DNA of 64,000 nucleotides from Oidiodendron maius Zn (Eukaryota > Ascomycota > Leotiomycetes > Myxotrichaceae). This document shows positions 24,904 through 64,000 of this stretch, piece after piece. A program made the position numbers and the translations under genes. Location of the stretch: assembly GCA_000827325.1 (NCBI GenBank), contig KN832902.1, positions 46,135 to 110,134 on the forward strand, read 5' to 3'. Below the pieces are notes generated by a model that ran no database searches, had not been told where the DNA came from, and saw only the letters and a list, made by a program, of their open reading frames with translations. Within the stretch, counting starts at the first letter, position 1. Each line of letters begins with the position of its first letter.

Positions 24904-27167
<2,264 letters not shown>

Positions 27168-33029: not shown

Positions 33030-36000
33030 TTACGATAATTGGCCGCCATGTTCACAAACAGTCTCAAACAAAAACCGATACCCCGGCGCTACCTGCTCCC
33101 CCCACTCGCGCATCTCCGGCGTCAAATGCAGATCGTGAATATGTGGCAGGTTCTGCAATGGCAAGAAGCCGTGAGGAACCCCCCTTGCCTCAAGCTCTCG
33201 CACGAATCGCTCCGCGCCCGCGAAAGGCGCTATTTCATCGGCGGCACCTAATGAATGATTGTTAATATCAAGGGTTGAAATACAATAAAGATGGGAGTTA
33301 CAGGACGAGGAGACATCACACACTGTGGATAATGAAGGTAGGGCAGGAATACTGTCCGGCTCGCAGGCGCGCTAGCGGACTGACAGAGGAGATGCGCTCG
33401 GGCGACGGCAGTGCGAGCGGCCAATCTATATCGTCTTCGCCAAACAGACACCCCTTGGGAAGCCCATTGAGCATCAGAGGAAGACCAATGTTTTCCTTGA
33501 AGAGTGCAAGAACGAGTTCGGAGCGAGGATCGCCGGGACGGACCCAGCCAAGCTTGGTGCTGTCTCCCCAGGCTGAGTTGTCGTAGGTGGTGATGGCCTG
33601 GGTTGGTAAGGAGGCAAGGATGCGTTTGAGGCTCATCTTACGGCCCGGAAGAGATTTCAGACGGGCCGCATCCAGCTCTCCCGACTCGAGGTCGACTGGA
33701 GCATAGAAGCTGAGAACCGCGGACGGAGGCGGGATGCTGGCAGCATGGGCTGTCCAACCGATTGACATGGCGAGCTGGCCGCCGGTTGACCAGCCGATGA
33801 GGACTACCTTGTCCGCCTTCACGGTAACACCATACTCAGTCGCTATTCCCGGGAGGACTGTTCGCGTCCACCGATAAGCATCGCATACATCAGTCATGGG
33901 TCCATCGACGAGGTTCACCTCGGGGCAAAGCCGGTAGTCAATGCTGACGGGGAGGAATCCATTCGCCAGGAGATGTCGCGTCTGGGTCGGCCGGATGGCT
34001 CTCCTGGAGAGGGTCATGTGGCCTCCGCCGTGGATCATCAAAGCTGTGGGGAAGATATAGGTTAGTGCATATGCTGTGTATGGGAAAATGATGGTGACAA
34101 AAGAATCTTTATGCAAAACCCGTACCGATGGGCATGGCCGAGGGCGGTGGCAGAGACGGAAAGTAGACATCAGCATGAATCCGCACTCCGCTCACCTCTT
34201 TGTACACTAACGTCTCCTTGCGGAATGAAGAGCCACCCTCCGCCCCAATGTCCTTAGCTGGAACATTCCAATGCTTATTGCACGCGACGAGGAGCTGCTG
34301 GCTGGTGGACTCGGGTGTTAGGCCGCCTGAACTGCTTGCAGATGCAAAACCTGCGGCCGCAAACATGGACATCCACGTCTCGGCCGGCTGGATGGGATAT
34401 GCGGTCCGGTTCTCGGCAAGCCACCAGCCGTCAAGAAGACCGAAACAGATGTCGTACCAGTCCATAACACGAGTAACCTCGGACAGGACGATGATGCCTC
34501 CTGGTTTGAGTGTCTCGCGTAGACGTCGGCATGAGGCGGTGCGATTGGTTGTTGCATGTACGCAGTTTGTGCTGACAACAACGTCGAAGCGGCCACGCAT
34601 CGCCTCCGGGATATCTTTCTCCAGATTGAAGGTCGTGAAGTCAAACCAGTCATAGAGCTTAAAAGTAGTCTTGGCCTTGGACACCAGGCTCGGCGCGATG
34701 TCGGTAAACGTGTACTGCGCTGAAATGCCAGCTGTTTCGAGGCCCGCAGCCAACCTCTTCGTGGTCCCCCCGGTGCCTGCCCCGACCTCAAGAATCTGCA
34801 CCGGCCTTCCCTTGACAGCCGTCTTCAGAAGCGCTGTGAGGTATACTGCCAACTGGTCTGTTAGTGTCGACATCATGGGTGAATGGCCATAGAAGTTCTC
34901 CATGATCTTCAGTGACGCGGGGCTCCCAAACATGATGGCAACGCTGTCGACCTTCCCGCTCAGGCAGTCTGCCAGCTTGGGGCCGGTAAGAGCGATAAGG
35001 GCGCTCTCGTCCCTGAATCCGGAGAATTTCTCTTGGAAGGCGGCTTGCAGTTGGGTCGCCGATCGCCACTCGACGTCACGGTCTCCTCGCTTGTACCCCC
35101 CCGCTGTACTGGTCGTCACGATGCCGTGTTTCTTTAAGATCTCCCACAGCCTTGGTACCAACCTGTCGTATTTGGGGGACTGGAAAGGGATCTGGGGAAG
35201 TCTTTCTCTGGGAGAAAATCGGGCAAGGTCGACCCCTAGCTTTGCGAAAGCCTCGACGATGTATGCGACAAGGAGTTCATCCTGGAACGGGGCGACGTTT
35301 GACCAGTATCCGACATAGTTTCGCTTGCTTGCCGAATCATGAAAGTGAGCGTCTGACTCCTTCAGGGCATCAAACGGATTCTCCACAATCGCGCTCTCCC
35401 CAGCAATTGCCTCTTGCTTCCCACCAGCAGGGCTGTAATTGGCGGTGCCTGTTGGGCCAACGCCTCCGCTTAATGTAATAACCTGTGGCTCTGCGCCGGG
35501 TGCGGCAATACCCAGTTGAGTCATCAAGTCTTGTACAGTGATATCAGTCATGATGTCGTCGATACGTACCGAGAAGCCGTCCTCGAGTTCCTGTTTCAGG
35601 TCCATAGCCGACAGTGAATCCACTCCAAGATCTGCGAGGAGGTCGGATGATTTGATGTCCTCGCTCTTTGCACTGGAGACCTGGGAGAGAACTTCCAGAA
35701 GCTTCGGCTGGCGCCGATCAGGCTGCCCGCCGGTTGCATATGGTGACTTCTCGCTTTGTGTGACTACGGCTGTCGAAGTCCGTGGTGCCAGCGGAGCAGG
35801 AGCTGGGGCGGAGAGGCACTGGCCTCCAAGCCGTTGGTGCAGTTCGTCCAGTGTAGTTCCGATAAGGTCACCAGAGTCGAAGGTCAGGCCAAATTTGGAT
35901 GACAGCTCGCCAACGAGCTCAACCGATGCGAGCGAATCTAGACCAAGATCGGCTAACATGCTCTCAGCGGCCATCTCAGATGCTGACGTTCCAGTGTACT

Positions 36001-39000
36001 CGGCTATAAGCTCTCTCAAAACCAGGCCTGTCGAGTCTCTGGTGCCTTGCGCAGAAGAAGTAGTGCTTGTTGCCGGTGTAACAATGCCTCCGCCTTCGGT
36101 GCTTGTGGTAACAGGAGAAATAGACGGTATAGCGGGAGCCTCTGATCGTGGCACGGAGGGCTCAGATCTACCTGCATCAAGCATCTTCTCAAGCCTGGCT
36201 ATGGGTAGCTTTGCGAAACGACAGCCGGTGAGCACAGCCACCAGATTACCTTTGGAATTGCATACGAACACATCGCCGATGGGTTGTTGCTCAGCTGTGA
36301 AGCCAAACTTGGCATAGATGCGCCATTGCTGCTTCAAATCATCCATCTTACAGGCCGGAGATATGGTAGCGTGATCAAGAGCAACCATGACCATGACCTC
36401 GTCAGCCGCGACGTGGTCACTAGTGTTCATGAGGAATCCCACCACCTGAATGAAAGCATCCACGGCCACTGCGTCGCAGAGCCTAGATGCCGTGCTTTCA
36501 TCCAATCCGGGCTGCCCGTCTGGCAGACGGACCGTGGCGATGGCCTCGTACCCATGCAGGGCTACGGAATGGATGCCGTGGAAAAAGGGTGCGTAATCAA
36601 CGACTCGGCTAAACAGACTATATGTTCGCTTTGACATCAGCCTCTCGGCATTCTCGTTGTCGTCTCTGTCCATCCTTTCCATCGGCTCCGAAACAAAACG
36701 TTGGAACACATCGAACCCGGCGCTTGGGGCCATGAAAACGCGGCCTCTTGCGTGGGCAATCTCCTTTGCTTTGGGCGAGCCAGACTCGGGCAGGAGAGTG
36801 CGAAGCGTCCACTTCCAGGATGTACCCACAGACAACTGCTCTAAGCGTACGATCACTTCACCCTCGGGCCTGATGCTTAGTGCGGAATTGAAGAAGACCT
36901 CCTCAAAGACGAGATTAGCTCCGCTCAGAGAAGCGTCATTGAGGAGCAACTGCAGCGACATGATGATGCATTCCATGTACATGGATGCAGGGCAAAGCGA
37001 CCTGGACCGCACCGCGTGGCCCTCGACGATGAAGCGGTAGCGTTGGCTCTGCGTGTTAATGACGAACTCTGTGGGCCCTGCACCATGGCTTGTCCTCTTG
37101 ACTACCAGCTTCAGGGATGGGGCGGCTAGTGGGATGCCATCTTGCACGGCCACGGATGGCGATATCTTCGACATGGTCTTCTGCATCTCCATGACTCGAT
37201 CAATATTGGTGATCCAGTGCCGCGTCCGCTTAAACTGGTACGGCGGCAGCCAGATAGGCTTGCAATGGCAAGTCCCGTTGACGGGGATCAAACGCCAGTG
37301 CGTCGGGAAGACACCCCTTCTCCAGAGGCTGGATACGACATCGGATACTACATCTACAGCTGGCTTTAGGCTTCCCTTGGTCTTGATGGAATGGAAGGTA
37401 TGGGATTCGGGTCGTTGGACAGCCGATCTGACCATGGCTGTCACGGGCGTGTCCACGCCGGCTTCCAAAAATGTGACTGGGCCGAGACGATCCTCGACTC
37501 TGCGAACGGCTTCGAAAAAGAAAACGGGGTCTCGTGCGTGCTTTGATGGACTGTACCCCTTCATAGTCCTGAGAGGCTCCTGTCGACATACCTCCAGTGC
37601 GATGTTTGGCTCGCCCCACTCCAGGGAATCTGCAACGATAGCAAGATCGGCCAGAATAGGTTCCATGAGTGTTGAGTGGAACCCATGACTTGTTGCGAGA
37701 CGCTGGGCCCGGATTTTTTGAAGGCTGGGCTCGGTGCGCAGCACGCTCTCGGCGGCGTCGACTGCGGCTGAGGTGCCGACGGCAACGAGGGTCGACGGAG
37801 CGTTGTGACAGGCGATCTCAAGCTGGGGAGAGTGCGTAGGTGCCCCCGACTGCTTTTGCAGCAGCGAGCAGATATCTTGGAACTGCTGGACTGAGCAGTT
37901 GCTGAGAGTGAGCATGGCCCCTTTCTCGGATCCCCATTTGGTGTCGATCAGATGTGCCCGAGCTGCGACCAGCTTGATAGCGTCGGATAGGGAGAGCACG
38001 CCTGAAACGGCGAGCGCGGTTATTTCGCCAAGGCTGTGGCCAATGATGGCGTTGATCTTCACGCCGGCATCAATCCAACATTGGGCACATGCATATTGCA
38101 TAGCAAAGATAGAGCATTGCAAGGTCACGACGTCGCTCAGTGGCTGTGTCGCGAAAATGGCGGGGATGATGGGAGGAAAACCTTGCTTCTTGAGCTCAGC
38201 ATCACAAGCGTCGATGTAGAACTGGACAGCCGGGAAGCGGTCGTACAATGACTCGTCCAGGCCGACCTTGTTGTCATACTGTCCACTGAATACGAGGACA
38301 ACTGGTTTCGGATCCTTCGGAGGCTGGAATATATCTGAAGCGGTTAGGCCCTCCAGAAGTCCGGCTGCATTGCTTACGGAGCCGGCTTGGACGTGTCCCA
38401 TGAACTGAAGTCGCTGTCTTCTCTGGTTCAGGGTCAAGGCAACGTCGGCTAGGTCCAGGCTCCCGGAATGCTGGCGTAGGTAGGCACCGATAGCCCGAGA
38501 ATTATCCAAGACGCCCTTTTGAGAAGAGGCAGTGATCATCAGCGGGAGAGTCACATTGATGTCGCCCAATGCCTTTCCATAGGCCTGCTGCTGGACAGCA
38601 GGCATCTCGCTGCAGAGCAAAGCGCAGTTGGATCCGGCCGCTCCGTAGCTGTTCACAAGTGCCGCCCGGAGAGGTGCATCCCAGGAGCGCAGCTTGCGTA
38701 CGATGGCGAGACCGTCAGGTTCCAGAGCTCCTATCTTGGGGTTCAAGCTATTGTGGTTGACCTGGGGCGGAAGCTGGCCGTGTTTGATCATGGCGAGGGT
38801 TTTCAGGAGGCCTGCGACACCAGCAGCTGTCTCGCAGTGTCCGATATTACCTTTGATGGAGCCCACATGGATGATGTTGTCGTTCTGCGTCTCGGATTGG
38901 CTTCTGTTGAAGACGGAGCGGATGCTCTCGATCTCGAGAGGGTCACCTGCCTGCGTCCCGGTTCCGTGTGCCTCGATATATGTGACCTTCTCAGGCGAAA

Positions 39001-41083
39001 GATGGGCCTGCTTCAGGACATTTTGGTATAATGCGATCTGTGCAGCCGAATGTGGAACCATGATGGACGCTGACAAACCACCCTGATTTGTAGCCACGCC
39101 AGAAATGACCCCCATGATAGCGTTTCCCTCGGCTAACGCTGTGCTGAGCTTCTTGATGATGACTAGTCCCGCCCCATCAGACCGGCAGTACCCATCTGCC
39201 GCTGCGTCAAAGGGCTTGCACTGGCCCGTGGCACTTAGAAAGCCAGCCTTACCCAGGTCGAAGTAATTGTTCATGCCCGTTATGAGGTTGACGCCACCTG
39301 CCAAGGCCATGCGGCACTCGCCATTTTGGACAGCCTTGCAGGCGCGGTTGATGGCGACTAGAGAGGAGGAACATGCCGTGTCGACCACTTCGGCGGGACC
39401 AGACCAGCCATAGTAGTAGCTCAGGCGGCCACAGAGGAAGGCGCGGATTGTGCCTGTTGATGTGTACGCTGTGGGTGCGTGGGCGTTGGTGTTGTCGAGG
39501 TATTCGACCAGACTGGCGCCGATGAAACAGCCGACGTTGTCCGCGTCCTCTCTTTTGTGGGTGACAAGGTACCCCGAGTCATTGAGGGCTTCGTATGAGA
39601 GCTCGAGGACTGAAGAGTGTTAGCGCCTTGTTGTAGTGGTTTTGGGGGCTATATGCATCTTACGAAGTCGCTGTTGCGGGTCCATATTGGCCGCCTCTCG
39701 GGCACTGACTCCAAAGAATGCATTATCGAAGCGTTGAACATCATCAATCAAGTTGCCGTAGAAGGTTCTTTCTTTGGCAAAGTTGCCGCTCTGGGTAGCG
39801 CGAAAGCCCCCATGGAGGTCGAACCGCTCCGTCGTGAGCTTCTGGTGACGGTCAGTCCCAGCAGCCAGCATGTCCCAGAGCTCCTCCAGGTTGTTAGCTC
39901 CTGGAAGGCGGCATGATGCCCCAACCACGGCGAGGGCATCCTCCGGGAAGGCGGGGATGCTCTTGATCCGCTGGATCAGAGTGTGTGCGGCCGTCTTGGT
40001 CGGGTGAAGACCCTTTTCAACGAAGGGGGTTCTGGGCACACAGTCGGTGAGGCCAAAGTAGACAAAGGATGGATTGCTGCGACCGGACTGCTCGACGTCG
40101 TTGGCAACCTCACCCAGCAGGCGGTACCACTCGCACCGGGAGGCCAGGATTGTGGTCACCAGTTCGTCCGAGAGTGAACCTTGGATGAGCCGCCTGCCGT
40201 CTCGGTTGGATCGCACGGGAACCTGGAGCTGCGAGGCATCAGGGAGCTGTAGACTGGGTGTCTCGCGGCAGAGCCGGCAGAGCTCGGCGGCCAGGTCCCC
40301 GTTATCAGGATTGTGCACCTTGCCCCTGATGTCGACCTTCTGCACTTGGAGACCTTGGTCTTGGGCATAAAGGAAGAGCTCCTGCAGGGTGTCCGCCGGC
40401 CCGACAATGCTGACGGTGCGTGGCTCCGTGATGGCCGAGACGTGGGTTCCAGGGAACTTCTCGGTCAGCTCGTCGCCCTGTCCTTCGTACTTGAGCTGGA
40501 GCGCCAGAGTTGTGGTTCCCGAGCCGCCTGAATCGTCGGCAAACTCGCCGTATGCGCCTACGCCGAGCAGGATACGCATGGTGGTGGCCGTGTGCTGGAC
40601 CACCTCGGCCTCGTCCCTGGCGCATGAGGCTGCTATAGCCGATGGGAGTCCCCCGCAGTATCCTTGCAGACCGCCGGCCGGCTTCACTTCGTCGAGGAAT
40701 TCACGATGAGAGAGGCCGTGGTAGGCGAGGTAGCGTAGGTACTGTCCAATCTGTAGGGCAACCAGCAAAGGGAGGGCCACGATGCCCGATCTGGCCTCAG
40801 CCAACGGTCCTCCCACGCCGTTGGCCGTCCAGTCATGGAACATGTCGACATAATGCGGGCCTTGGCTGAGCGCCGCGACTTCGGCTCTAGATTGGGCGAA
40901 TATTGACCAGACGTTGTCTGTCTTGAGGTTCTCGATGGCCTTCAGGAGCATGCATCCGTGCTTATCTTGGAGGAAGAAGGAACGGAGGCCGTTAAGGTAC
41001 TCCGAGTCTGGGGCTCGGGCTTGCGGACAGAAAAATGCGCCTGAGACTGGTAGTCTAATGTTGGTCATGGCCGTTGAGCCCAT
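33030..41083 (-). CDS. Nonreducing polyketide synthase SAT-KS-AT-PT-ACP-ACP-CMeT-esterase
   Basis: Four exons (41083-39664, 39609-34126, 34043-33324, 33247-33030) join in frame to 2613 residues. SAT: GYCGG with Cys143, and His257. KS from about 382: MDPQQRLLLELSYEAL restored across intron 1, VDTACSSS with Cys553, EAHGTGT and KGNIGH. AT: GHSLG near 998. PT: catalytic His in VEGHAVRS near 1345 and the Asp block DAVAVDAF near 1520. Two ACPs: GLDSLAS and GVDSLSA. CMeT: LEVGAGTGG near 2085. C-terminal alpha/beta-hydrolase: HGGGH at about 2306 and GWSTGG with Ser2387. The architecture fits the class making C-methylated orsellinate-type acids released hydrolytically. Product length and methyl count are not readable. 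It shares a 759-bp divergent promoter with the P450. Confidence 0.95.
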
Positions 41084-41842
41084 GGCTGGGTGTTATGACG
41101 TTGAAGAATAGGATTGTGAGTTGAGGAGACAGTGATGGAAGATAATGCATAAGAATAATAAACACAAAAAGTAAGCTTGGTGTCAAGGAACGGGGCTAAC
41201 TAACACACCCTCGGACCTCTGAGAAGGACTGTCCCGGCCGATAGATAGATAGATAGATAGATAAATAGATAGATGGTAGAGAGTAAGCCAGCTGGCGACC
41301 AGTTTGTCACACGGGGCTAAAGTAGCAACATAGATAGCTCTATGCATTTCACGGTTTGTATGCCATGCCAGGACATTGGACTCACGGCCGGTACAAAGAG
41401 TGACCGGAGAAATCTTGGCCACTAACTACTAGAGAGGCGCTCCTATTGAGACCCCGGGTCTGGCCACGGTCTGAGGCATGGCTATACTACTGCTTACGCC
41501 GAACTGCAGTCTTATTAAATGCGCCGGCATTACGTCCTCTCGCCGGTGTGTTTTATAGCCAAAAGGAGGAAACGCGCCGGATAAATACTGGAAACTATGT
41601 TCCTGCCTCAACCTCGCTGTTCAGACTGTGATCATTCTCCTGCTCTGGATTGCACATATCAATCGCATCAAGGTTTAGATCTTCAGCCTCTTTATCTAGC
41701 CGGTCCTGGCCACTGACTCGACTTCCTCCAGTTAGGCTTCCCCCTAAGCATTCGTACGCGACTTCTCTAGCAGCTCGCGATTTCTTATATCTCCGGGTTG
41801 GAGAAAACAATAATACGAGAGCAAACACTTAGGAACTCAACA
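41084..41842. promoter_or_regulatory. Divergent PKS/P450 promoter region
   Basis: This is the shared upstream region of the PKS (minus) and P450 (plus). A (GATA)n microsatellite with one GATAAATA interruption lies at 41240-41276, near the PKS side; GATA sites can bind nitrogen-response factors, but a simple repeat is also plausible. Three GCCGG-centred sites occur at about 41501-41580 near the P450 side (GCGCCGGCA, TCGCCGGTG, GCGCCGGAT) and are candidate Zn2Cys6 sites. Confidence 0.5.
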
Positions 41843-43711
41843 ATGACTAAGCCTCTCCAGTATCTTGAAGTGGGTGGTAGCTTGACCGTTACGGCGCTCG
41901 TCGTGTTATGCATACAAGTCTACGTAGTGGTATGTGTCCGATGTTCTTCCCAAGTAATATGCAGGAAGGCTGACTGGCCATGACGGCGACAGTATTACCT
42001 CGCCTCGGCCGTCTACTTGCTCACCTTCCACCCTCTGGCGAAGTATCCCGGACCGAAGCTGTGGGCTGTATCGCGGATTCCATGGGCACTGCGTGTTATC
42101 AGGGGTGATTTGTGGGTTGCCCTAGACAAGTTTCATGAGAAATACGGCGATGTCGTACGGATTGCGCCAGATGAGATGTATGTGACCGTGGTTCCGTTGT
42201 TGTCTCCAGTAGAATGTGTAGGCCCATCCGGGGTCAATCATCCTGTGTCTAACCCATACTCGTGCCGTACTAACCCAGATATACTTATTCCAGCACAACT
42301 ATCCGACCAAGCGCCTGGAAGGACATCTATGTAACCAAACCTGTCCTCCCCAAAGACCCGTACAGCCTGACCCCCCCCCTGAACGGTGCCCACTCTCTCT
42401 TCACCGCAGAAGGCGACACAAACCGACGCATCCGCCAAGCCCTCATTAACGGGTTCTCTGATAAGGCCCAGCGTGATCAGGCGCCGATTGTTGAGGGTTA
42501 TGCTAAACTGCTGATAGCTCGCATGCTGCGTGAAGCAGCTAAGACGAGCGATGGACAGATCGACATCCAGAGGCTGTTTGGATATGCTACTTTTGACACC
42601 GTCACTGACCTGAGCTTTGGTGAAGCGTTACTGAACACTCTCGAGGAGCACGATACTGAGCATAATGAGATCTACATGTTTTCCCTCCACGCCAAATTTG
42701 GGACAATCCGCAACTGTCTCTCCAGGTTCAAGCCCTTTGATGCCCTCCTCCGCTTGGTCCTCCTCCGCGTGACGCGTCCTGTCCGCGAACACAACTGGCA
42801 GCTGGCTACCGAGAAGGTCGAGCGACGGCTGGCGAGGGGCGACCTGACAGGTATTCGATCAGACCTCCTAACCCCAGTGGTTGGCAAGCTGGACGAGAGC
42901 GGCCAGAAAGGGAGCATCACAAAGAAGGAGCTCATAACCAACCAGCTGGCCTTTGTCATCGCTGACTGCCAATTGACGACGGTAGCTCTGTCTATGGCCA
43001 CCTACCTCCTCCTGCGCGACCCATCTAAATGGCAACAACTGGCCAATGAGATCCGCGGCCGCTTCAACAGTGATGAGCAGATTACGGTGCAATCGACCCT
43101 GGAGCTTCCATACCTAGAGGCTGTCATTAACGAGACAATGCGGTTCCGCCATCCTACGCCTATTAGCCTGCCTAGGGTCATGCCTTCTAACGGTCGCATG
43201 GTGGATGGAGAGTTGATTCCCGGAAATGTGAGCTTAATAACTTCTACTTCTCCACCAGACTTACCTATGATGGTCTGGTGTTCTAACTATCCAATCATAG
43301 GTGATTTACGGCATCAACCTGCAGAATATCCAGACCACACCAAGCCTGTGGGCCGAACCGCAAGCCTTCCACCCTGAGCGGTTCCTGCCCCAGACAGATG
43401 AGCGCTACGACCATCGGTTTGACCGGGACGTCAAAGCTGCGTTCATGCCCTTCTCCACTGGGGCGCGGAATTGCCTAGGATCAAAGTGAGTAACCATTTC
43501 CTATTATTCTCCACCACTTAAAATACCTGACATGAGTTTCTTTTTTCATAGGGTATATCTCGCTCAAGCGCGCGTATTCCTCGCCAGGGTGGTCTGGAAC
43601 TTTGATCTGATCATGGAGGATGGGAGGATGAAGGATGAATGGCTGGATCAGAAGGCCTATTTAGTATTTGAGCCTAAGCCATTGCAGGTAAAGCTGAGGT
43701 TGGCTAGGTAG
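41843..43711 (+). CDS. Cytochrome P450 monooxygenase
   Basis: Five exons (41843-41929, 41993-42177, 42294-43227, 43301-43485, 43552-43711) give 516 residues, a full-length microsomal P450. An N-terminal membrane anchor (TALVVLCIQVYVV) is followed by the hinge HPLAKYPGPKLW. The K-helix ETMR, FHPERF and the haem loop FMPFSTGARNCLG (Cys near 460) are intact. The I-helix is unusual. Where fungal relatives have AG-x-E/D-T-T, this reads ADCQLTT, so the acid-alcohol pair is replaced by Gln-Leu when aligned on the following ALSxATY. The gene is divergent from the PKS and probably oxidises its product. The reaction cannot be predicted. Confidence 0.92.
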
Positions 43712-44529
43712 TCGCCCAAGGTTTAAGGTCCAGGATGGGTTTACAGCTATATAGGTATAAATATACGATTTTATACAATCGTTCTAGTCTTAAGGGTATA
43801 ATATCTGTTGCGGTCGCCCATGGCGTTGGCGCTGGCGATAGTCTGGGCGAACAGCGGATATAGTCGTGGGGAGGGCCGTAGCGTAGTGCGAGCACTCGCT
43901 TCGCGGGCACACTACAGTACCACAATAGAAGCCAGCCCTAGTAGTTCGTCAGCACACTGATATATTGAGTCCCAGGAGTTTTACCTGGTAGGACGGTGCG
44001 ATTTAGGTGTCACTTTGGACACGTGGCGCAGCAGTATAGAACTACCACCCTATACTAATCCTATACAGCCATAATATATACCTGACCAGGTACGGGAGGT
44101 ACAGTACCTAGGTACCTTCTTTACGTCACATTTTATTACCTCTACACACTACCCTATTATTAATTTATGCTATTGTATGTATTCTTCTTTAATAAAGGCA
44201 CCGTCGGTCGGCAAGGCATCTGAAACTTCAATGTTATAAAGCGCAGTCCCAACACACAAAATTACTCGATCTAAGTGAAGCAGAGGCTGCACGCCAAAAG
44301 GGGGGTGGAGGGAAGGATAATAATTGTAAAGTAGAAAAAAGGTATAGAAAATATGCGGATATTAGGCTCAAAGATAAATTGAACGAGGTGAGGATGATAA
44401 GAAATAAAGCTGTAGATGTGCAACAACAGAGGGTACCTCTAACTGCCACGAAAGTACCAACGGAACCGGGCAGCAAAAGGGGTTGCAATGAGATTCATCA
44501 TTATTTCTCGATAACACTACATATCCTCG
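43712..44529. other. Convergent intergenic region
   Basis: This lies between the 3' ends of the P450 and halogenase genes and holds their terminators. It is AT-rich with no gene; frames at 43704-43925 and 44234-44488 have no domain. Confidence 0.5.
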
Positions 44530-46727
<2,198 letters not shown>

Positions 46728-48130
46728 CTAGAAGTCAACAAGCTTCATGCCTGCCTCCGGGTACCGGGTGCCATGGATAGGGAAACTAGCCAAGATGTCC
46801 GTAATAGCCTTCAAGTCGTCCCCGGACAACTCCACTGTTGTCGTATTCTCCCTCATCCTCTCGGGAGACCGTGTCCCCGATATAGGAATAATAAAAGGCA
46901 TGCCTGGCTTATTGCTCTGTGCCTTTATCCACGACAAGGCGAGCTGGCCAGGCGTGACACCCTTCGCCTTGGCCAGCTTTGCCACCTCAGAGACGAGCTC
47001 CAGATTCTTGTCGAAATTCTTGCCCTGGAAGCGCGGAAATGCGCGGTGGTGACCCTTCACGTCGTCGGCCGTTTTCCATTTTCCGGCCAGCATCCCGGCG
47101 CCGAGGGGAGTGTGTGCCACAATGAGGATTNNNNNNNNNNNNNNNNNNNNNNNNNNNNNNNNNNNNNNNNNNNNNNNNNNNNNNNNNNNNNNNNNNNNNN
47201 NNNNNNNNNNNNNNNNNNNNNNNNNNNNNNNNNNNNNNNNNNNNNNNTGCCTGGCTTATTGCTCTGTGCCTTTATCCACGACAAGGCGAGCTGGCCAGGC
47301 GTGACACCCTTCGCCTTGGCCAGCTTTGCCACCTCAGAGACGAGCTCCAGATTCTTGTCGAATCTTGCCCTGGAAGCGCGGAAATGCGCGGTGGTGACCC
47401 TTCACGTCGTCGGCCGTTTTCCATTTTCCGGCCAGCATCCCGGCGCCGAGGGGAGTGTGTGCCACAATGAGGATTCCCAGCTCGGCACATGTTGTCGCAA
47501 CGCCATTGTCAAAGATCTCGGGCGCCCACAGGCTGACCTCCTCCTCGACCATGTCAATCTTGGCGACGGCAGTGGCCCGACGGATGGTGGCGGCCCCGAC
47601 CTCGCTCAGCTGGATGCCGCCAATCGCTCCCTCGGCGACTAGCTCGGCCAAGGCACCAACAGTATCCTCAATAGGGGTGTTCTTATCCACACGGCCGATG
47701 CCAAACAGATCGATCTTCTTGTGGCCGCGAAGGGTATTATTCGCGTTGACGACAAGGCGGCGGACACACTCAGGAGAACCATCGATGAGGTATCTCCTCA
47801 TATCCACCACGCCGCTCTTGATGCACACAACTACCTTGTCAGCATCTTCAGGATACGTGGCAAAGTATGACGCTAACAGATGCAAGGAGTTGTGCTCGGG
47901 GGTGCCGTAGAAGTCTGCCCCGTTCCAAAGGGTGACGCCCTCTGCGAGCGCTGCTTTCAGCACCTTGAAGGCCGCCTCATCAGGCATCGGGTTAACGGGG
48001 TCGGTCAACCCTGTTTGGTGTGTTTAGTCATGCTGGCCTTTCTAACGGACGAAGTATAAGAATAAAAAGACATACGCATCAGGCCGAGGCCATTCTGACC
48101 GACAACCTTGTCAACGATCGTGGTTGTCAT
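46728..48130 (-). CDS. Aldo-keto reductase (pyridoxal-reductase-like)
   Basis: Exon 1 is 48130-48076 and exon 2 starts at 48010. As printed, exon 2 is interrupted by a false gap. Skipping 47131-47475 (the N run and the repeated unit) gives 938 bases in frame and a 330-residue protein, normal for the family. It starts MTTTIVDKVVGQNGLGLM. The catalytic Asp51 and Tyr53 lie in GADFYGT and Lys83 in CIKSG; RVD follows DLFGIG, where many members have His. AHTPLGAGMLAGKW and FIIPISGTR are cofactor-side motifs. It would reduce an aldehyde or ketone with NADPH. Position between the halogenase and the oxidase suggests a cluster role, but related enzymes also act in vitamin B6 metabolism. Confidence 0.88.
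46901..47475. other. False assembly gap with unmerged contig ends
   Basis: The 230 bp at 46901-47130 recur at 47248-47475 with a two-base deletion near 47361; 117 N (47131-47247) lie between. This is what results when two overlapping contig ends are scaffolded instead of merged. The two-base deletion in the second unit breaks the aldo-keto reductase frame and is probably a contig-end error. Confidence 0.93.
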
Positions 48131-49692
48131 CTTGCACTCGCTTCGTGAGATGTTCGGTGCCTGTCGGAGGACTTTGCTTTCTATTCACGTTGCTTCGGTG
48201 TGTTCCGTCAATCCAACATGTTCTTGACTGGACTGGGTTTCTAGTTAAAGTAGTGGGTGAGACGAAAGGCGTACGTGCAGGCTTTCGGAGTTAGGGATAG
48301 AGAAAGTCCTGTTACACAAACGAGGCGTCAGCAACAAAGGAACAAACAGGCCAATTAGTTGAAGCGGCCTCCTTCTGCCGGCTTGTCCCGGTCTGAAGGC
48401 AAGACCAGCAACGGGTTATTAAAGATCCGATTTCTTCTTTGGGAAGAACCCACCGGAGCGGAGATACTAGTTCCGGTCGGTCTAGAAGGTGTCTACAAAT
48501 AAGTAAGTAAAAGCAACCCGCCGTTGATAGCAGGGGACAAGAGTGGGCTACCGTGGTGAGCGGTCCCATGTGACGAGGGATTGTGCGGTGTTCATATCAG
48601 GAAAGCCACATCCACTAAGCCCTAACTTATCGGATGGAAATACCACTTGGTAGGAACGTGCTTGTATTTAGTGACCGGGGTTCTGCAGTCCCTGGCTGTC
48701 TAAACGCCGGACACCTTCCTTGATACTGGCCCTCTGTCCGTCTGCCTACAGTTACCTGGGATAGTTTAGATCATACGATGATGTTTCCAAGGCACAGGCT
48801 CGGTCTAGGTTTCGTTAGACAGGTCCCCGATCAGAGGCATCGAACGGGGAAGAACTAGCTCTTTGCTCTCCGCGCAGAACAGGGTCAGTGGAGCCCTGGA
48901 GCTTCTCCTGGGAATTGGTGGGAGTAACGTGTTCAGGCATAATGCCGAGTCATTTGAAAAGCTATTGCAGGAAGTAGGTGAGGCTATAGGCACAGAATGG
49001 AAAGTTACTGCGAGTGTAGACTATGGACTGGGCATTGATAACTTCAAAAAGAAGTGGGATGATTCGACAACGCGTCGGCTAGTCCTTGAGGTCAGGCGCC
49101 TTTGAGGCACTTATCATAGTAACAGAGTTTCATATCATAATTATTATTTCTTTACTCTATATAGCTATTATTTCCTTCTTAAGTCCCTAAAGCCCTTCTA
49201 TTTGGCTAGGCGTATGGTACAGGAGTAGGTGATATAGCGCATTGAACTGAGGCGCAGCAGCAGCGGCTTTTGGACGTGAATTGGCATCCATAGTTGTGCG
49301 GGGAGCAGCAATATTAGTCCCAATTTCAGTTATATTGGCTGACATGTTGGCTTGAAAAGGTGGTGTTGCATGAAAGTGGGAAAAATTTACGTATTGGTGG
49401 ATTTCATTATTGCGAGATGTTGCACTAGCAGAACGATTAATAGATACAACAGGAAACTCAATGCTGCATTCAGGCACCCGATCTTACACATTGCGAATTT
49501 TTGTATTACTCTGGTGATACTGCATATGCAATATTGGTTCAAAATGATAGTTATTATTAGTTGTTGTCTAAGTCGACGGTCTAGTCTTAGCTATCCATAT
49601 ACTCTCCCCGGTCTGTCGTTCATCAGTCGTCCTGAAAAGGTTTATCCGTGAGTCCGGTCATACAGCGATCAATATCTCTGGTTCTCGCCCAC
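48131..49692. other. Spacer upstream of the aldo-keto reductase
   Basis: The first part is the aldo-keto reductase promoter. A plus frame ending at 49105 (GALELLLGIGGSNVFRHNAESF) is protein-like but has no identifiable family or start. At 49500-49550 a phrase (GTGATACTGCAWATGCAATAT) recurs from 23770-23795. No gene is asserted. Confidence 0.45.
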
Positions 49693-51400
49693 TCACGCTA
49701 TTATAGGGTTATAGTACCGAAACAAGTTCCCTGGGTCATACACAGCCTTGAGCGCCCTCAGCGCCGGAAGCTTGCGGGCTGAGTACCAGGCCGCAGGGCC
49801 CTCATCTCCATGGCCAAAGTTCACGTAGGTCTCGAGATCAGTGCTCCCGCTTCCCTTCTGTGCCAGTCTTCGAACCTCCTGGCCGAACTGGTTTAGGGAT
49901 GGAATGTCGGAGGCATCAAGGGCGAAGCCGTCGAATTGCCTGTTTTTCAGTTTCTTGTCAGCACCAGCTCCGGCAGCTCCGGGAGCAAATGTTGGGACTT
50001 GGGATGGGGAACTCACAGAAAGACGGCAACATCGCGATACGGAAACGCAGACGAGGAATCTGGGTACAAGTGGAACCCATAGCTAGAAAACTGTGCCCAG
50101 GAAAGAGTCGCTGTCTTTATCTCCGAATTAATGGGAATGGTCTGGTTCATGTAGTTGAAGAGCTCGATGAGATTTTCCACGTCAACTTGGTAGAGATTTA
50201 CAGCATACGGTACAAAAGGCACACCTTTCTGTGTACCTCCCTTCAATTCACCGTAGAGTAGCACCGCGGTGAAGTTGTCGTATGGAACCGGGTAGTTAAT
50301 CTCAACCTCGATGGGACTCAGGTCCAAGAAGGGTTGCATGTACTTCATACCAGCTGCCTGTGGCCCTACATAAATGAAGCCGGCAGCGATAATCATGCCA
50401 CCTAGTGTGGCATTGTACTGGACAGCAAGATTAATGGTGAATTCCTTTGGCTGACGGCCAACCAGGCCCCCCGCCAACCGCCACACAGATGCATTCTTCG
50501 GCCCGGTGAAGAGCGCATTGACGATCAGGGCCTCGCCATTGTTGGTAGCAGGATAAATGCGGTAGGTGAGAGATGTTACGACACCATAATTGAAGCCAGC
50601 GCCCTTGATGCCCCAGAACAGATCCGGATGCTGCGTGGCCGAGACGTTGAAGATATTGCCGGTGCCTGTGATGATCTCCACGGAAAGTAGCGAATCTGAA
50701 ATAGCTCCGTACATTCCTCCGTAGGGGCCCACACCTCCACCGAGAGTAATACCTGCTAGACCTGCGGTTGGGCATTGGCCAACGGCTGAAAGGCGGACAC
50801 TCCCTATTAGCGGGCAGTTCTTGTAAGATATGGTGGAGACAAGCGTATAGAAAACTTACGAAGCTCCTTGCCAATAGCTTGGAGGGTGGATGTAATATTG
50901 CTAAGGTGCCAAGCTGGGCCGACAGTGATAGTGTTCGCACTTTCGTCGATTTCGAGGTTATCAAAGTTAGAAAGGTCGAGGTCTATGGCACCCTGGACAC
51001 TAGACAGAGACCAACTGTATCCGTGACCACCAGAGGTAGCGAGGAAAGACACATTGTACTGAGACGCATATTGGATCTAGAAGAGAAATATGTGGTGAGT
51101 TGGAGGATTCTCTTAAGGAAACTGGCCGAATCATTCAATACAGTTTGTACATACCACCTTCTGCACATCGCCCACAAGTGCAGGCTTTACACCGACAACG
51201 TAGGTCGGCGAACCGCTGCTGCTAAACCGGGGGATAAAGTCTTGGCTGTAGGCCGCACTGGATGTGAGTACGACCTCAGACTCTGAAGAGAGTCGCAACT
51301 GCAGGTCTTGGACTATTTGCAGAGGAGAGAAAGCTGCCGCAATATGGACGGCATAGAAGTAAGCAAGGCCGTATATAACGGCGGAACGGAGTGTAACCAT
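49693..51400 (-). CDS. Secreted berberine-bridge-type FAD oxidase
   Basis: Four exons (51400-51155, 51076-50860, 50803-50017, 49939-49693) give 498 residues. An N-terminal signal peptide runs to about residue 24 (ends HIAAAFS). The FAD-binding PCMH domain has SGGHGYSW with His100 and VGQCPTAG with Cys165. That 65-residue spacing is expected for bicovalent flavin attachment. GGGVGPYGG and the C-terminal DPGNLFRYYNPI (BBE domain) complete the fold. Such enzymes oxidise alcohols, phenols or C-C/C-N bonds using oxygen. Several Asn-glycosylation sites fit passage through the secretory pathway. It sits 1.04 kb divergent from the SDR gene. A tailoring oxidation or ring closure of the polyketide is plausible. 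Confidence 0.92.
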
Positions 51401-52443
51401 GTCCTGTTGGACGGTGAGTGGTTGGTTCTCGCAGAAAGAGGGAATTTGCCGATATTGGGATATTGGGGACGTGTTTCGGATAGAGATACTTGGTGTTCGA
51501 TTCCAGACTTCTTAAATACCAGAAGAAGCTTCTTCGGACGAAAACCCCTTGGGCCGAATTAGACGCTGTACCCTGGACTCATAAGCAGGCATCCACGTGG
51601 GCTTTTCCTAAGTCAACATTAGTACTCGCATCTATTTTGGCCTATGTATTCCGGATAAGCTAATCTTGCAAGTAGAATCCATGTGGCTCGCACCAAATAG
51701 TGCGCTACTTCGTATAACCGACAATAGCCAGCTATTCTTACGAAAGCAAGTGGGTATCCGAGAGTGTGTGAGCAGCGCCATGGCTGGTTCACAGGCCATA
51801 GACTGACTGGCTACCGGCCTGATCGGGTTAGAAACTCCCGGTTGTTACGTGAAGTCAAGAGGCATGGCTTTTGCAGAATCCTCAGAGGCGCAGCCTCGTA
51901 AGACTCGGTCTACACTAGTCCCTATACCATAGAATACTAGGGATTAAGGTTACTCGAACGGGAAGAACCCACCGGTAATGCTACTCGCTGGACCGGGTTC
52001 TAATCTCCATAAGGCTTGTGGTTTTCCCCGATGCGGATCTCTGTTAAGTAGGCCCCTGGCCCGGATCGGAGAGCCTACTACTTGTATCCCTTAGTGTGGC
52101 AGCCACAGCCTATAAAAGTGGGGGCCGTTAAAATATCTATATTGGGTAATTCTATCTAAAAAAAGCATATACTTAAACATAGATTTACGGGAGAATTTTC
52201 TTAATAAGGTAATTACAGCGTATTTATCTTTCATCATTAAGGCTGTGGCTGCTGAGCGTGCACCGTAAAAAGTGGCCGATGTTTTGCCAAATCGGCTGAC
52301 TACCCTTCGGCTGTCGCGAAGGTTGTCAGCCCTGGCCCGTCATACCAACATCCACATCCAACATTCACATCCACATTTCGGCTTGAGATATCCGTATACT
52401 GTATTTCAACCTCTCAGGTCTTCGACTGGAAACTTTGCTCAAC
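51401..52443. promoter_or_regulatory. Divergent oxidase/SDR upstream region
   Basis: No gene is seen between the two divergent starts. No copy of the TCGGCGG array was found here. A near-palindromic CCACGTGG (51593-51600) resembles an E-box. The 52125-52220 part is AT-rich. Regulation is not readable beyond this. Confidence 0.35.
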
Positions 52444-53385
52444 ATGTGGTCATACATCGGGTATCTAGGCATTTTCTGGCTCTCTATCCTCGTTATCAAA
52501 CTCACCCGCTTTTTATACCTGCACATGCGCCCATCCTCTCTGCACCGCTACAAATACAACAAAGGCAGTGAGCTGTCATGGGCATTCGTGACCGGCTCGT
52601 CCGATGGCATAGGGCTTGGTTTAGCGCACGAATTGGCGCAATCAGGATTTAATATCATTCTCCATGGACGCAACCCCACGAAGCTAGAAGGAGTGAGGAG
52701 GACCCTTGGTCAGGAATACCCGCAATCTGAGATCCGTGTCATCGTCGCAGATGTGAGTGATAGTGCCCAGATGCAGATGCGAATTAGTTCCATCGTGGAA
52801 GAACTGCGACATCTGCATCTTACTGTTCTGATCAATAACATCGGCGGCCCTCCGCCGCTAATGAAACCTCTTTACAAACCATTTGCAGCAAATATCGACA
52901 CGGATGTTGAGGGCATGCTGAATATGAACATCCGCTTCACCATATACCTCACACGAGCTCTACTTCCTCATCTCACCAAGAATCAAAAGCCTAGTTTGAT
53001 CATCAATATCGGCTCTTTTGCTGACGTTGGAATGCCTTGGTTGAGCATGTACTCTGGCACCAAGGCGTTCATCAATGGCTGGAGCTCAGCGCTGGCGCGG
53101 GAGCTGAAGGCAGAGAAGAAGCGTGTGGAAGTACTGGCGATTGTGCCGGTGAGAGTGACGGATGTGTCTTTTAGGAAAGAGGCGCCTACTTTAGTGCAGC
53201 CGAATGTAAGGACTTTTGCCAGGGCGAGTTTGCAAAAGGTAGGTTGTGGGCGGCATGTTGTGGCGGGGTACTGGGTGCATGATGTTGTGATTTCGCTGTT
53301 GAGTTTGCTGCCGGGGAGCAGGTTCTCGAAAATACTCGTGAAAAGCATCACAGCCGAGTCTCTGAAGGATATGAAGAAAGATTGA
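52444..53385 (+). CDS. 17beta-HSD/3-ketoacyl-reductase-like SDR
   Basis: A single exon of 313 residues. An N-terminal hydrophobic helix (IGYLGIFWLSILVIKL) suggests ER or membrane anchoring. The NAD(P)-binding TGSSDGIG lies at 50-57, followed by NNIGG, the catalytic Ser in NIGSFAD and Tyr/Lys in MYSGTKAF. This is the classical short-chain dehydrogenase layout of the 17beta-hydroxysteroid dehydrogenase type 3/12 and very-long-chain 3-oxoacyl-CoA reductase group. ATG at 52444 was chosen because the open frame upstream has no earlier ATG. It may reduce a ketone of the polyketide or belong to lipid metabolism; cluster membership is by position only. Confidence 0.88.
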   Translation: MWSYIGYLGIFWLSILVIKLTRFLYLHMRPSSLHRYKYNKGSELSWAFVTGSSDGIGLGLAHELAQSGFNIILHGRNPTKLEGVRRTLGQEYPQSEIRVIVADVSDSAQMQMRISSIVEELRHLHLTVLINNIGGPPPLMKPLYKPFAANIDTDVEGMLNMNIRFTIYLTRALLPHLTKNQKPSLIINIGSFADVGMPWLSMYSGTKAFINGWSSALARELKAEKKRVEVLAIVPVRVTDVSFRKEAPTLVQPNVRTFARASLQKVGCGRHVVAGYWVHDVVISLLSLLPGSRFSKILVKSITAESLKDMKKD

Positions 53386-53505: not shown

Positions 53506-53862
53506 TTAGTACTTCGTCATTTGCCCACCAGCGCGCCTACAATCATGTAGCCTTTTAGTATACCAATTATACATATTCTGAATTGTCTTCTGATCCATTT
53601 CCTTCTCAAAAATCTTTATAAACCGTGCTAAACCAGCCTGTTCAGACGCACGTCTCTTAGAGTGAAATATCTGCTTGAGAGGATGCGTCATTGACTCTAA
53701 GATAGAGAAATCTGGTGAGACTCCTGGAAGAGTAATTAGATCTAAGCCATTCTTTTTCGCCCATACCTGTGTCTCTTTTGAATCATGTGCTGAATCGGCA
53801 TCTTGGCAAAGAGTAAGGCCTTGATCTTTAAGGTCTTGTAAGAGGGAAGGAAGGACCTCCAT
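53506..53862 (-). mobile_element. Tc1/mariner transposase C-terminal relic
   Basis: The frame has QDADSAHDSKETQVW and then LPGVSPDFSILES. These are the second Asp region and the SPDxNxIE block that ends the DDE triad of Tc1-type transposases. The N-terminal helix-turn-helix and first Asp are missing, so it is a fragment. Confidence 0.75.
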
Positions 53863-54537
53863 AGGGAATCCGCTCCTTTATCGCCGCCGCCGCCACCACC
53901 ATGAATTCCTACGTTGCTTCCTTCGACGAGATAACCGTCCTCAAGTTTCCAATGGCAACGACTGCGAATACGGCGGTGTGCACGACGATACACGACGATA
54001 CTCGGCGATACAATACGATGGAGAGAGCGACCACCAGAACATATGACAAGGCATAATGGTGGGCATGACGATGAGTACAACGGTGGGCACAACGATAGCG
54101 ACCACAACAGCGGGTACCACGATGGCGGCGACGGTTATCGCAAGGCATATCAATCACGGGCATGACAAGCACGGCAGAGGGATACCAAAGGCTGGCCTCT
54201 ATCTCTATTTTGCCTGTCTGTACGACTATTACTATTACTGTGCCACAAGGGCAACGAAGACCGGATCAGCGCCAACGTCCAATGCTACCGATAGCTACGT
54301 GAAAGGGATTATTTACCCAACTATTATTGATCTTCTGACTCTAATACCTGCAAAGTACAAACTCGCCATCATCCTGTCATACTATACATAGAGGAATCTA
54401 GAAGATTCTAGACACTGAGTGGCAGTTATTAACCACTATAAAGCCATACGCTCTCCTTTAACCCTCTATGAAATAGAGATAAAAGAAAAAGAGATATTAA
54501 ATTAAGACTACAATACAAGGTTAACTATACACTAGTT
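53863..54537. other. Low-complexity spacer
   Basis: Around 54050-54170 a codon-biased stretch reads in one frame as Gly/His/Asp-rich peptide (NGGHNDSDHNSGYHDGG) and in others as Thr- or Arg-rich. It may be the remnant of a disordered-protein gene. No start, domain or splice structure is clear. Confidence 0.4.
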
Positions 54538-56231: not shown

Positions 56232-56632
56232 CGCTCTCAATGACTTGAAGTGGCCTAAATATTCTAGTCCGTGGTTAGATTAGGCTCGTCATGTATCCCC
56301 ATATATATAATAGCTCCAATAAACACATATAGCCTTTCTGTAACTAAGCTAACCCACTCATATTGCCTCTCCTCTATTGCTCGCTTCCTTTGAATAGCTG
56401 CGTATTGATTCGCATTCTTAGTAATAGTCTCAAATAGCTCAGGTGCAAAGAATAAGGTAAAATAGTCAAAGGAGTGCGAATCAGGTAAAAAGGTAGGTGG
56501 TAAGAGAACTTGTGCGTCCTTATGAGGCTCTAGTTGAACCGGCTCAAATATAACCTGATCAATAGATCCGAACTCAGCTAGTATATCCTCAAGAGACCTG
56601 GCTTTACTAGAAGCAGCAGCCTTAGAGTCCAT
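56232..56632 (-). mobile_element. piggyBac-like transposase N-terminal relic
   Basis: From the Met at 56632 the frame reads DSHSFDYFTLFFAPELFETI, then IYMGIHDEPNLTTD. These are the start of the piggyBac-type transposase domain. A TAG follows where relatives have Tyr-Trp, and more stops come after it. TGG-to-TAG-type changes fit RIP. The catalytic core is missing. Confidence 0.75.
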
Positions 56633-56700
56633 GTTGTATTTGGTAAGTCGGTAGGTAGGTAGGTAGGGAGGGAGGGAAGGTAGTTGGAGTAGTCGGTTCA

Positions 56701-56757
56701 GGTGATTCAAGGCGATTCAAGGCGATTCAAGGCGATTCAAGTGATTCAAGGCGATTA
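56701..56757. repeat. 10-bp tandem repeat
   Basis: The unit GGCGATTCAA occurs about six times with small variants (GGTGATTCAA, GTGATTCAA), just upstream of the piggyBac relic. A short GGTA/GGGA run precedes it at about 56650-56685. Confidence 0.9.
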
Positions 56758-57125
56758 AGAGGGGAGTATTCAGGCGGTTGGATCGCGCGAAAAAGATGTA
56801 AATAGCCTATTCGGGACTAGTGCTTATATTATACAACCTCCTTAGGTGGAGATGGGTTGCATACTGCGCCTTATGGAATTCACCCTATTGGTCCATCGGA
56901 CACTTTTCTTCCACAAAATTGGCAGCACGTGTAAAGATGTATTTGCGTCAACCGAATGGCTAAAACGGTAATGATTACCCACTAGATAAAAACTCCTCAC
57001 TATCCAGCGAATAACCCAAAGCTAGCGCGAAGATTGTAGAGAGGTTTCCCCAAATTCTACCTTTTCTTTGGCGTACCATATATTAGCTCCTGAATTAGCG
57101 CTAAACTCCCTGCGATTCGACTACA

Positions 57126-63493: not shown

Positions 63494-64000
63494 GGCTCGT
63501 GTTACAAACACACCACAGATGCTGACATAACCGACACACCACGCATATCATTTACCCTTTTCGGCCAAAGGGAGTGTATTATTACTAAGATTACCCCTTT
63601 AGGACGCTGTGGTGTGTATGCAACTAGCGCAGCCCTTTACGGCTAGTATTAACTCCCTTTACCTGGACGCGTATTTACTGCCCTAGGCTCCTAGTAGTCC
63701 TGAATCAAATACAACCCTCCTGAAGCTCGAATACAGCCCTCTTGAAGCCCGAATACAGCCCTCTTGAAGCTTAAATACAGCCCTGAAAATGAATCAGTTT
63801 AGCCAATTCGACGTTTCTGACCCCTTTTCTCAACCACCACCACCAGCGCAGCCCCTGACCAGCGCGTCTGACGCGTTATCCCTGCCACCTCTAGCCACCT
63901 ACCCCTCTAAAGAAGCCCTTTTTGAGGCTATTCAGAGCTGGGCTAAGCTACAAGGGTATGCCTTTACTGTAATTAGAAGCAAGCGGATTAAGGATGGGCG
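63494..64000 (+). mobile_element. MULE DNA transposon, second copy, incomplete at window end
   Basis: This copy begins GGCTCGTGTTACAAACACACC at 63494 and is related to the copy ending at 61318, in the opposite orientation. Its transposase ATG is at 63789 (MNQFSQFDVSDPF), and the frame stays open to the window edge, with TGG at 63939-63941. Terminal and leader sequences differ by many transitions from the other copy. Whether it is complete cannot be seen. Confidence 0.85.

Follow-up and report, generated by a model that had tools for sequence, protein, structure and literature searches.

What does a fungus make with a non-reducing polyketide synthase (NR-PKS) that shares its locus with a halogenase and a mixed set of oxidases and reductases? 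The question is raised by a 64-kb stretch of DNA from Oidiodendron maius Zn (hereinafter the window), which belongs to contig C33 of a 45.9-Mb, 58-contig genome. At positions 33030-53385 of the window, six genes stand together that code for an NR-PKS, a cytochrome P450, a RadH-type halogenase, an aldo-keto reductase (AKR), a berberine-bridge-type (BBE) oxidase and a short-chain dehydrogenase/reductase (SDR). Judging from domain content and active-site residues, this group is probably a biosynthetic cluster that yields a single-ring aromatic polyketide bearing chlorine and a C-methyl group, and our best guess at the product is a chlorinated methylorsellinate on which an atypical P450 and the flavin oxidase would carry out an oxidation or a coupling. 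The genes and the two divergent intergenic regions are as follows.

33030-41083, minus strand: NR-PKS, four exons (41083-39664, 39609-34126, 34043-33324, 33247-33030), 2613 amino acids (aa)
41084-41842: PKS/P450 divergent intergenic region, 759 bp by the gene coordinates
41843-43711, plus strand: cytochrome P450, five exons, 516 aa; Pfam PF00067, 3e-57
44530-46389, minus strand: RadH-type flavin-dependent phenolic halogenase, six exons, 520 aa
46728-48130, minus strand: AKR, two pieces around an assembly gap; Pfam PF00248, 2e-36 and 4e-15
49693-51400, minus strand: BBE-type FAD oxidase, four exons, 492 aa; PF01565 and PF08031
51401-52443: BBE/SDR divergent intergenic region, 1043 bp, containing GGGAAGAACCCACCGG at 51960-51975
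52444-53385, plus strand: SDR, single exon, 313 aa

Pfam supports the family of each of the six genes. The first-pass annotation of the window had placed the same families together within these bounds, which indeed coincide with the end of the PKS stop codon (33030) and the SDR stop codon (53385). It had also held that all exon joins are in frame; this stands for the PKS, P450, halogenase, BBE oxidase and SDR, for which hand-built spliced models (five of the six genes) are in frame and contain active-site motifs, but not for the AKR, where a run of 117 N with duplicated flanks interrupts the gene and the frame is lost. The 12 introns in the P450, halogenase and BBE oxidase genes are 49-116 nt long and run from GT to AG, as do the three introns of the PKS gene; together with the gene families, such short introns indicate a fungal source.

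The polyketide synthase and the halogenase

By Pfam, the domains of the PKS are arranged in the order SAT-KS-MAT-PT-ACP-ACP-CMeT-alpha/beta hydrolase, with the motifs GYCGG, TACSSS, GHSLGE, VEGHAV, two copies of LGxDSL, NCVHATTN, HGGG and GWSTGG, and the C-terminal release domain matches BD-FAE and Abhydrolase_3. The order SAT-KS-AT-PT-ACP-CMeT-hydrolase with catalytic motifs, by which we recognize the group VI type, is thus present, and the synthase is probably a group VI enzyme with hydrolytic release, an assignment made by domain content rather than by a tree. Group VI NR-PKSs have TE-like domains that hydrolyze off the tetraketide product (PMC5591372), and the synthases of groups VI and VII share the C2-C7 mode of cyclization and, in most cases, a CMeT domain (PMC5386248).

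The CMeT domain shares 117 of 340 positions (34.4%) with that of the citrinin synthase CitS/PksCT (5mpt). In the substrate pocket, 11 of the 17 residues listed in PMC11579551, the His/Glu dyad among them, match CitS, and six are changed (L1938V, V1954F, I1960M, N1961M, M2094V and V2101Y). The last of these positions is occupied by Phe in the synthases of 3,5-dimethylorsellinate (DMOA) and by Leu in those of 5-methylorsellinate (5-MOA) (PMC11579551); the window PKS has neither residue there, and its Tyr led us to reject both product types, in line with the earlier argument against a DMOA-type pathway. Given a pocket unlike either type, 3-methylorsellinate is left as the simplest guess. Elsewhere in the same genome, the PKS closest in the CMeT region lies on contig C12 (37% identical), and a second one, on contig C3, is 34% and 43% identical on two pieces. 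The combination of a CMeT domain with a fused hydrolase is, presumably, also consistent with the locus not being of the griseofulvin or geodin type, as had been proposed.

The halogenase has an obvious nearest relative of known structure. Its best match in the PDB (phmmer) is RadH (8gu0) at 908 bits, with the runner-up at 144 bits, and the two proteins are identical in 391 of 516 positions (75.8%; 335 of 411 within the first 412 residues), with Lys74 conserved. Three motifs of flavin-dependent halogenases are present, among them GGGPAG (GxGxxG) and WCWTIP (WxWxIP). The halogenase thus displays all the features by which we delimit the RadH/Rdc2 group, namely at least 60% identity, which is the network threshold used in PMC10377541, Lys74, GxGxxG and WxWxIP. 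At that threshold, RadH groups with six other sequences (PMC10377541), and the matches to RadH in MycoCosm span 37-79% (PMC9144378, a review); taken with these figures, 75.8% identity identifies the window protein as a RadH-group enzyme, and chlorination of a phenolic ring is its predicted activity. CHEESY1 is only 26% identical to Rdc2 (PMC12645471). The RadH match, the domains of the PKS and the CMeT comparison jointly support what had been read from the letters of the window, a chlorinated, C-methylated aromatic polyketide released by hydrolysis.

The same genome contains other relatives of the halogenase. The 11 strongest matches elsewhere (>90 bits) are 45-61% identical to it, and those that are weaker or shorter lie between 29 and 73%, apart from a 92% match on C33 that is an inverted copy described below. 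The halogenase family model matches at least seven other places in the genome and the SAT model matches many; on contigs C1, C14 and C28 the two kinds of matches lie close together, and on C1 and C28 there are, additionally, KR matches nearby. In prokaryote contigs, 22 stretches fit the halogenase peptide pattern and none was confirmed.

The altered P450, the flavin oxidase and the interrupted reductase

The P450 retains the heme loop FSTGARNCLG, the ExxR motif and PERF, the marks of the superfamily. In helix I, which reads ADCQLTT in alignment with AGYETTS of CYP3A4, the acid is replaced by Gln and the threonine by Leu, so that the acid-alcohol pair of canonical hydroxylating P450s (A/G-G-x-D/E-T/S) is missing. 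The control set for this observation consisted of 30 loci extracted from among the 94 own-genome matches listed; four of these loci are the window gene itself, one (L071) did not align, and 25 aligned over helix I, representing 24 genes because L074 and L078 are parts of one gene. As judged by eye (the alignment of L082 is shifted), all 24 paralogous genes have the helix-I acid (Asp or Glu), and in 23 of them Thr or Ser adjoins it, the exception being L068 with Pro. By these residues, the window P450 is an outlier among the paralogs compared.

P450s that lack the acid/Thr pair are known to perform unusual chemistry, for example, phenol coupling in plants. Among four papers listed by a literature search on such enzymes, none has a title on fungal phenol coupling, and one deals with GliF, a P450 of fungal ring closure. 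The simplest other explanation is loss of function, against which the open frame and the intact heme site favor a retained enzyme.

In the BBE oxidase, the FAD-linking residues lie in SGGH (97-100) and GQCPT (157-161), with the His and the Cys aligned with those of PDB 9p1p. Both signatures of the bicovalent BBE type (SGGH and GxCPT) are therefore present, and a bicovalent flavin is predicted for this enzyme; its relatives in the PDB include 9p1p, EncM and others. The N-terminus is hydrophobic and resembles a signal peptide when inspected by eye. It is this stretch, along with the FAD-linking His and Cys, that agrees with the proposal of a secreted flavin oxidase, which would thus be a putative one. 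The SDR retains TGxxxGxG, NNxG and YxxxK, and its N-terminus likewise appears hydrophobic by eye.

The AKR, for the larger piece of which the best PDB match is perakine reductase, is broken in the assembly, and a partial copy of it lies 20 kb away.

47131-47247: assembly gap inside the AKR gene, 117 N, with duplicated flanks at 46901-47130 and 47248-47475
24904-26346, plus strand: partial inverted duplicate of 46292-47686, covering the 3' part of the AKR gene and the 5' end of the halogenase gene

A 230-bp stretch lies on either side of the assembly gap; its two versions align at 99.1% identity once two alignment gaps are placed, these gaps shift the reading frame of the AKR, and the right-hand version is out of frame. 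This arrangement looks like two contig ends that truly overlap. The aligned pieces of the inverted copy are 99.5%, 99.8% and 100% identical to the original, with a gap of two bases in one piece and of one base in another; a run of 520 N stands in the copy in place of 126 bases of the original, and the copy is open across the point where the AKR breaks. The pieces of the AKR and halogenase genes are placed by this copy into unrelated sequence. A genome search with 839 bases of the duplicated stretch found matches within the 64-kb window only. As each of the two copies contains a run of N, it is plausible that a genuine, recent duplication misled the assembler, the other option being a pure assembly artifact.

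Proposed pathway, related clusters and rival explanations

The route that would follow from these assignments starts with the NR-PKS making a methylated tetraketide and releasing it hydrolytically as a methylorsellinic-type acid, most simply 3-methylorsellinate. The RadH-type halogenase would then chlorinate the ring ortho to a phenol, most simply at C5, which the C3 methyl leaves free; in radicicol, RadH acts at this same C5 in orsellinate numbering. If that site carries over and the methyl is at C3, the ring is fully substituted, so that later steps would have to act on the methyls, the oxygens or the carboxyl. The P450 without the acid/threonine pair might perform an atypical oxidation, such as coupling through phenol radicals, the flavin oxidase, acting perhaps outside the cytosol, would oxidize a phenolic or benzylic position, and the AKR and SDR may reduce carbonyls that arise along the pathway.

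A more specific version, which we consider possible although somewhat unlikely, takes the P450 with Gln and Leu in place of the acid and Thr to be a non-hydroxylating oxidase that generates phenoxyl radicals on the chlorinated methylorsellinate and, along with the flavin oxidase, yields a coupled or dearomatized chlorinated scaffold, one that no cluster has so far been linked with; in this version, a C-methylated tetraketide ring would be the new substrate of a RadH-type halogenase that came from resorcylic-lactone chemistry.

Several points weigh against the scheme of a chlorinated methylorsellinate. The Tyr at CitS-2101 fits neither residue rule, and the available text of PMC11579551 assigns it no product; moreover, the code for the methyltransferase is partly predictive, a single swap in NvfA having produced partial product conversion, and the KS matters too (PMC11579551). 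Chlorination at C5 is proposed by analogy with RadH, and the tetraketide substrate is an extrapolation, given that RadH is known to serve a resorcylic lactone pathway in nature. As for the altered P450, it may have no activity, or the substrate may assist it in activating oxygen. The AKR is incomplete in the assembly, and EncM, which is among the best PDB matches of the BBE oxidase, has no Cys in the alignment, so that the bicovalent flavin is not universal among the relatives of this enzyme.

Parts of this gene set recur in described clusters. The halogenase is closest to RadH of Floropilus/Chaetomium chiversii, with which it shares the 391 identical positions, Lys74 and the motifs, and it is assigned to the same group as Rdc2 of Pochonia chlamydosporia, the sequence comparison covering RadH; both known enzymes belong to radicicol pathways (PMC9144378), whereas the PKS of the locus described here contains a CMeT and a hydrolase domain and is the only PKS of the window. 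With the DMOA synthases AusA, Trt4, AndM and NvfA and the 5-MOA synthases such as FncE, the window PKS has in common the CMeT domain and group VI-type hydrolytic tetraketide release, but differs in having Tyr rather than Phe or Leu at CitS-2101, and no prenyltransferase gene accompanies it among the genes scanned. The scan covered, along with the six genes, 24 flanking open reading frames (ORFs) selected from the window ORFs of at least 90 aa and searched with Pfam; it found neither a prenyltransferase nor an O-methyltransferase, which bears out the absence of both that the first-pass annotation had noted.

Also related is the dia cluster for diaporthinic acid and dichlorodiaporthin in A. oryzae and T. 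reesei, which combines an NR-PKS, a flavin halogenase, an SDR and a PCMH-type FAD oxidoreductase (PMC13301986) and, through this pairing, provides a precedent for a halogenase working with a flavin oxidase. The dia halogenase either carries a fused methyltransferase or has one as a partner, and a beta-lactamase-like protein accompanies it, whereas the window halogenase has no MT domain, the scanned ORFs have no Pfam match to a beta-lactamase-like protein, and the CMeT, P450 and AKR are additional. The atranorin cluster of lichens (atr1-atr4) pairs a PKS containing MT and TE domains with a P450 acting on 3-methylorsellinate units (PMC8262933), much as proposed here; in place of its O-methyltransferase and transporter, the window has a halogenase, a BBE oxidase, an AKR and an SDR, and no atr3-like O-methyltransferase or atr4-like transporter was found among the scanned neighbors of the PKS and P450 genes. 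The tals cluster for Talaromyces depsides likewise includes a methylorsellinate NR-PKS, a P450 and an FAD-dependent oxidoreductase (PMC11944171); the available text on it does not mention a halogenase, and no decarboxylase or Diels-Alderase-like gene was identified at the window locus.

The meroterpenoid-type clusters of Hypoxylaceae encode an SAT-KS-AT-PT-ACP-CMeT-TE synthase like the window PKS save for the second ACP, alongside three P450s, an O-methyltransferase and a terpene cyclase (PMC8403587), a set that was not found here. NR-PKSs are associated with flavin-dependent halogenases, as in the window, in the terrein-like rsl, chm and plo clusters and Cladonia PKS-4 (PMC12848540) and in the clusters for pestalachloride (PMC9598291), sclerotiorin and ilicicolin (PMC9569342); as described in the available texts, these clusters have other gene sets that contain, for example, a highly reducing PKS (HR-PKS) partner, a prenyltransferase or a TerB-like reductase, and none has the six genes of the window. 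No published cluster with the same six genes appeared in the literature lists and text passages surveyed, the coverage of which excludes most subscription journals, and a search that required five of the six elements of the gene set together gave no paper.

Two of the rival explanations are narrower versions of the general scheme of a chlorinated, C-methylated aromatic, and their odds therefore overlap with it. In one of these, the product would be a chlorinated depside or depsidone, with the PKS coupling two methylorsellinates, the P450 closing the diaryl ether, and the halogenase and oxidases decorating the result. The tandem ACPs and the atypical P450 fit this possibility, and in lichens, depsides and depsidones, which may bear chlorine, are built from orsellinic or 3-methylorsellinic acid (PMC8262933), whereas the release domain is of the BD-FAE/Abhydrolase_3 kind and the group VI TE-like domains are described as hydrolytic (PMC5591372); given that depside synthases are set apart by description, this is not a strong objection, and we rate the depside or depsidone as rather unlikely. 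The other narrower version, a phthalide or isocoumarin, has the P450 hydroxylating a ring methyl, the acid lactonizing and the oxidases tuning the oxidation level. Atr2 of the atranorin cluster oxidizes the methyl of a 3-methylorsellinate unit (PMC8262933), and an FAD oxidoreductase works in the dia isocoumarin cluster (PMC13301986), both of which make such a route conceivable, but the window P450 lacks the acid/threonine pair of a hydroxylase and a product of this type appears unlikely to us as well.

Further away from the preferred methylorsellinate scheme is a split resorcylic-lactone pathway, in which an HR-PKS encoded far away would hand its chain to the SAT domain, and a radicicol-like ring would be the substrate of the RadH-type halogenase. 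The identity of the halogenase to RadH (75.8%), compared with the 45-61% of the 11 strongest own-genome matches elsewhere, can be read in this way, and many KR matches elsewhere in the genome leave room for an HR-PKS. Within the window, however, no partner HR-PKS stands beside the NR-PKS: the longest open frame outside the cluster, a piece of glutamate dehydrogenase, has only 639 aa, so that there is no second PKS. The list of KR matches, for which 35 of 237 candidates were scored, has 43 entries and none on C33, although the window SDR, which matches the KR model, is absent from it too, so that weaker KR matches were missed. The NR-PKS itself has a CMeT domain and a BD-FAE-type hydrolase, and contigs C28 and C1 already combine KR, SAT and halogenase matches. 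A split pathway is, accordingly, very unlikely in our estimate, and the radicicol pathway as a first choice was rejected for the lack of a second PKS in the window and the CMeT in the NR-PKS. Finally, the cluster might be decaying, with the gap and the partial inverted copy reflecting rearrangement and the P450 change reflecting loss of function. The gap, the near-identical inverted copy, the transposon remnants nearby and the missing P450 residues are compatible with decay, but in five of the six genes the frames are open throughout, the introns run from GT to AG and the catalytic motifs are present, the inverted copy is open across the AKR break, and flanks that repeat over an N run resemble overlapping contig ends; decay is thus quite unlikely.

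Flanks, promoter motifs and significance of the locus

Outside the six genes, the window contains a possible regulator, traces of transposition and several short motifs.

57105-58922, plus strand: Zn2Cys6 transcription factor gene, open frame; PF00172 and PF04082 on 509 of 606 residues
48441-48456, plus strand: second exact copy of GGGAAGAACCCACCGG, upstream of the AKR gene

The Zn2Cys6 gene, which transposon and WD40 remnants set apart from the SDR gene, is a candidate for the cluster regulator. This gene (about 57105-58922), the assembly gap in the AKR and the inverted copy at 24904-26346 were absent from the first-pass annotation. Transposase remnants of three types (DDE_3, DDE_Tnp_1_7 and MULE) are scattered over the right flank at 53509-53877, 56267-56716 and 59761-60159, and an imperfect inverted repeat (60850-61318 and 63494-63985; 83% over 497 aligned columns) possibly represents the ends of a transposable element. 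On the other side of the cluster, a gene for a TPR repeat protein (21594-23210) contains 126-bp tandem repeats with 92% identity between the copies and resembles fungal NLR-like genes. A weak, sub-threshold MFS match was found at 1781-2140, about 31 kb from the cluster. No tRNA gene was found in the window in a run with the bacterial code, and a search of the whole assembly for 5.8S rRNA had no match.

The 759-bp spacer between the PKS and P450 genes is a candidate bidirectional promoter. The 16-mer GGGAAGAACCCACCGG occurs exactly twice in the 45.9-Mb genome, at 48441-48456 and 51960-51975, both within intergenic regions of the cluster. When up to three mismatches are allowed, 4 of 100 shuffles of the window reach the observed two matches; a shared 16-mer appeared in 27 of 5000 draws of random segment pairs of the same length (pairs with segments less than 1.1 kb apart were skipped yet counted in the 5000), to be set beside the 21 pairs of intergenic regions that were compared. 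The sequence is thus a weak candidate for a regulatory site. No 9-mer is common to three of the four promoters, and a single 8-mer, counted with its complement, occurs in three. GGGAAGAAC has four copies in the window, all in the cluster span, including one in the first P450 intron, and none of 100 shuffles reaches four. Upstream of the halogenase gene, there are three tandem CCGCCGACT motifs (46553-46590), with a duplicate near 26048-26089.

Taken as a whole, the locus appears to be an orphan halogenated NR-PKS cluster that is ordinary in kind, its distinctive points being the P450 and the link to RadH. Three features offer testable handles: a P450 whose heme site is intact but which lacks the usual oxygen-activation pair, a close relative of RadH with a different likely substrate, and a CMeT pocket that lies outside both residue rules in the available text of PMC11579551. 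Provided that the P450 is active, it could help to show what the acid/Thr pair does in the tailoring of fungal polyketides, and such clusters serve as points of departure toward chlorinated natural products and biocatalysts.

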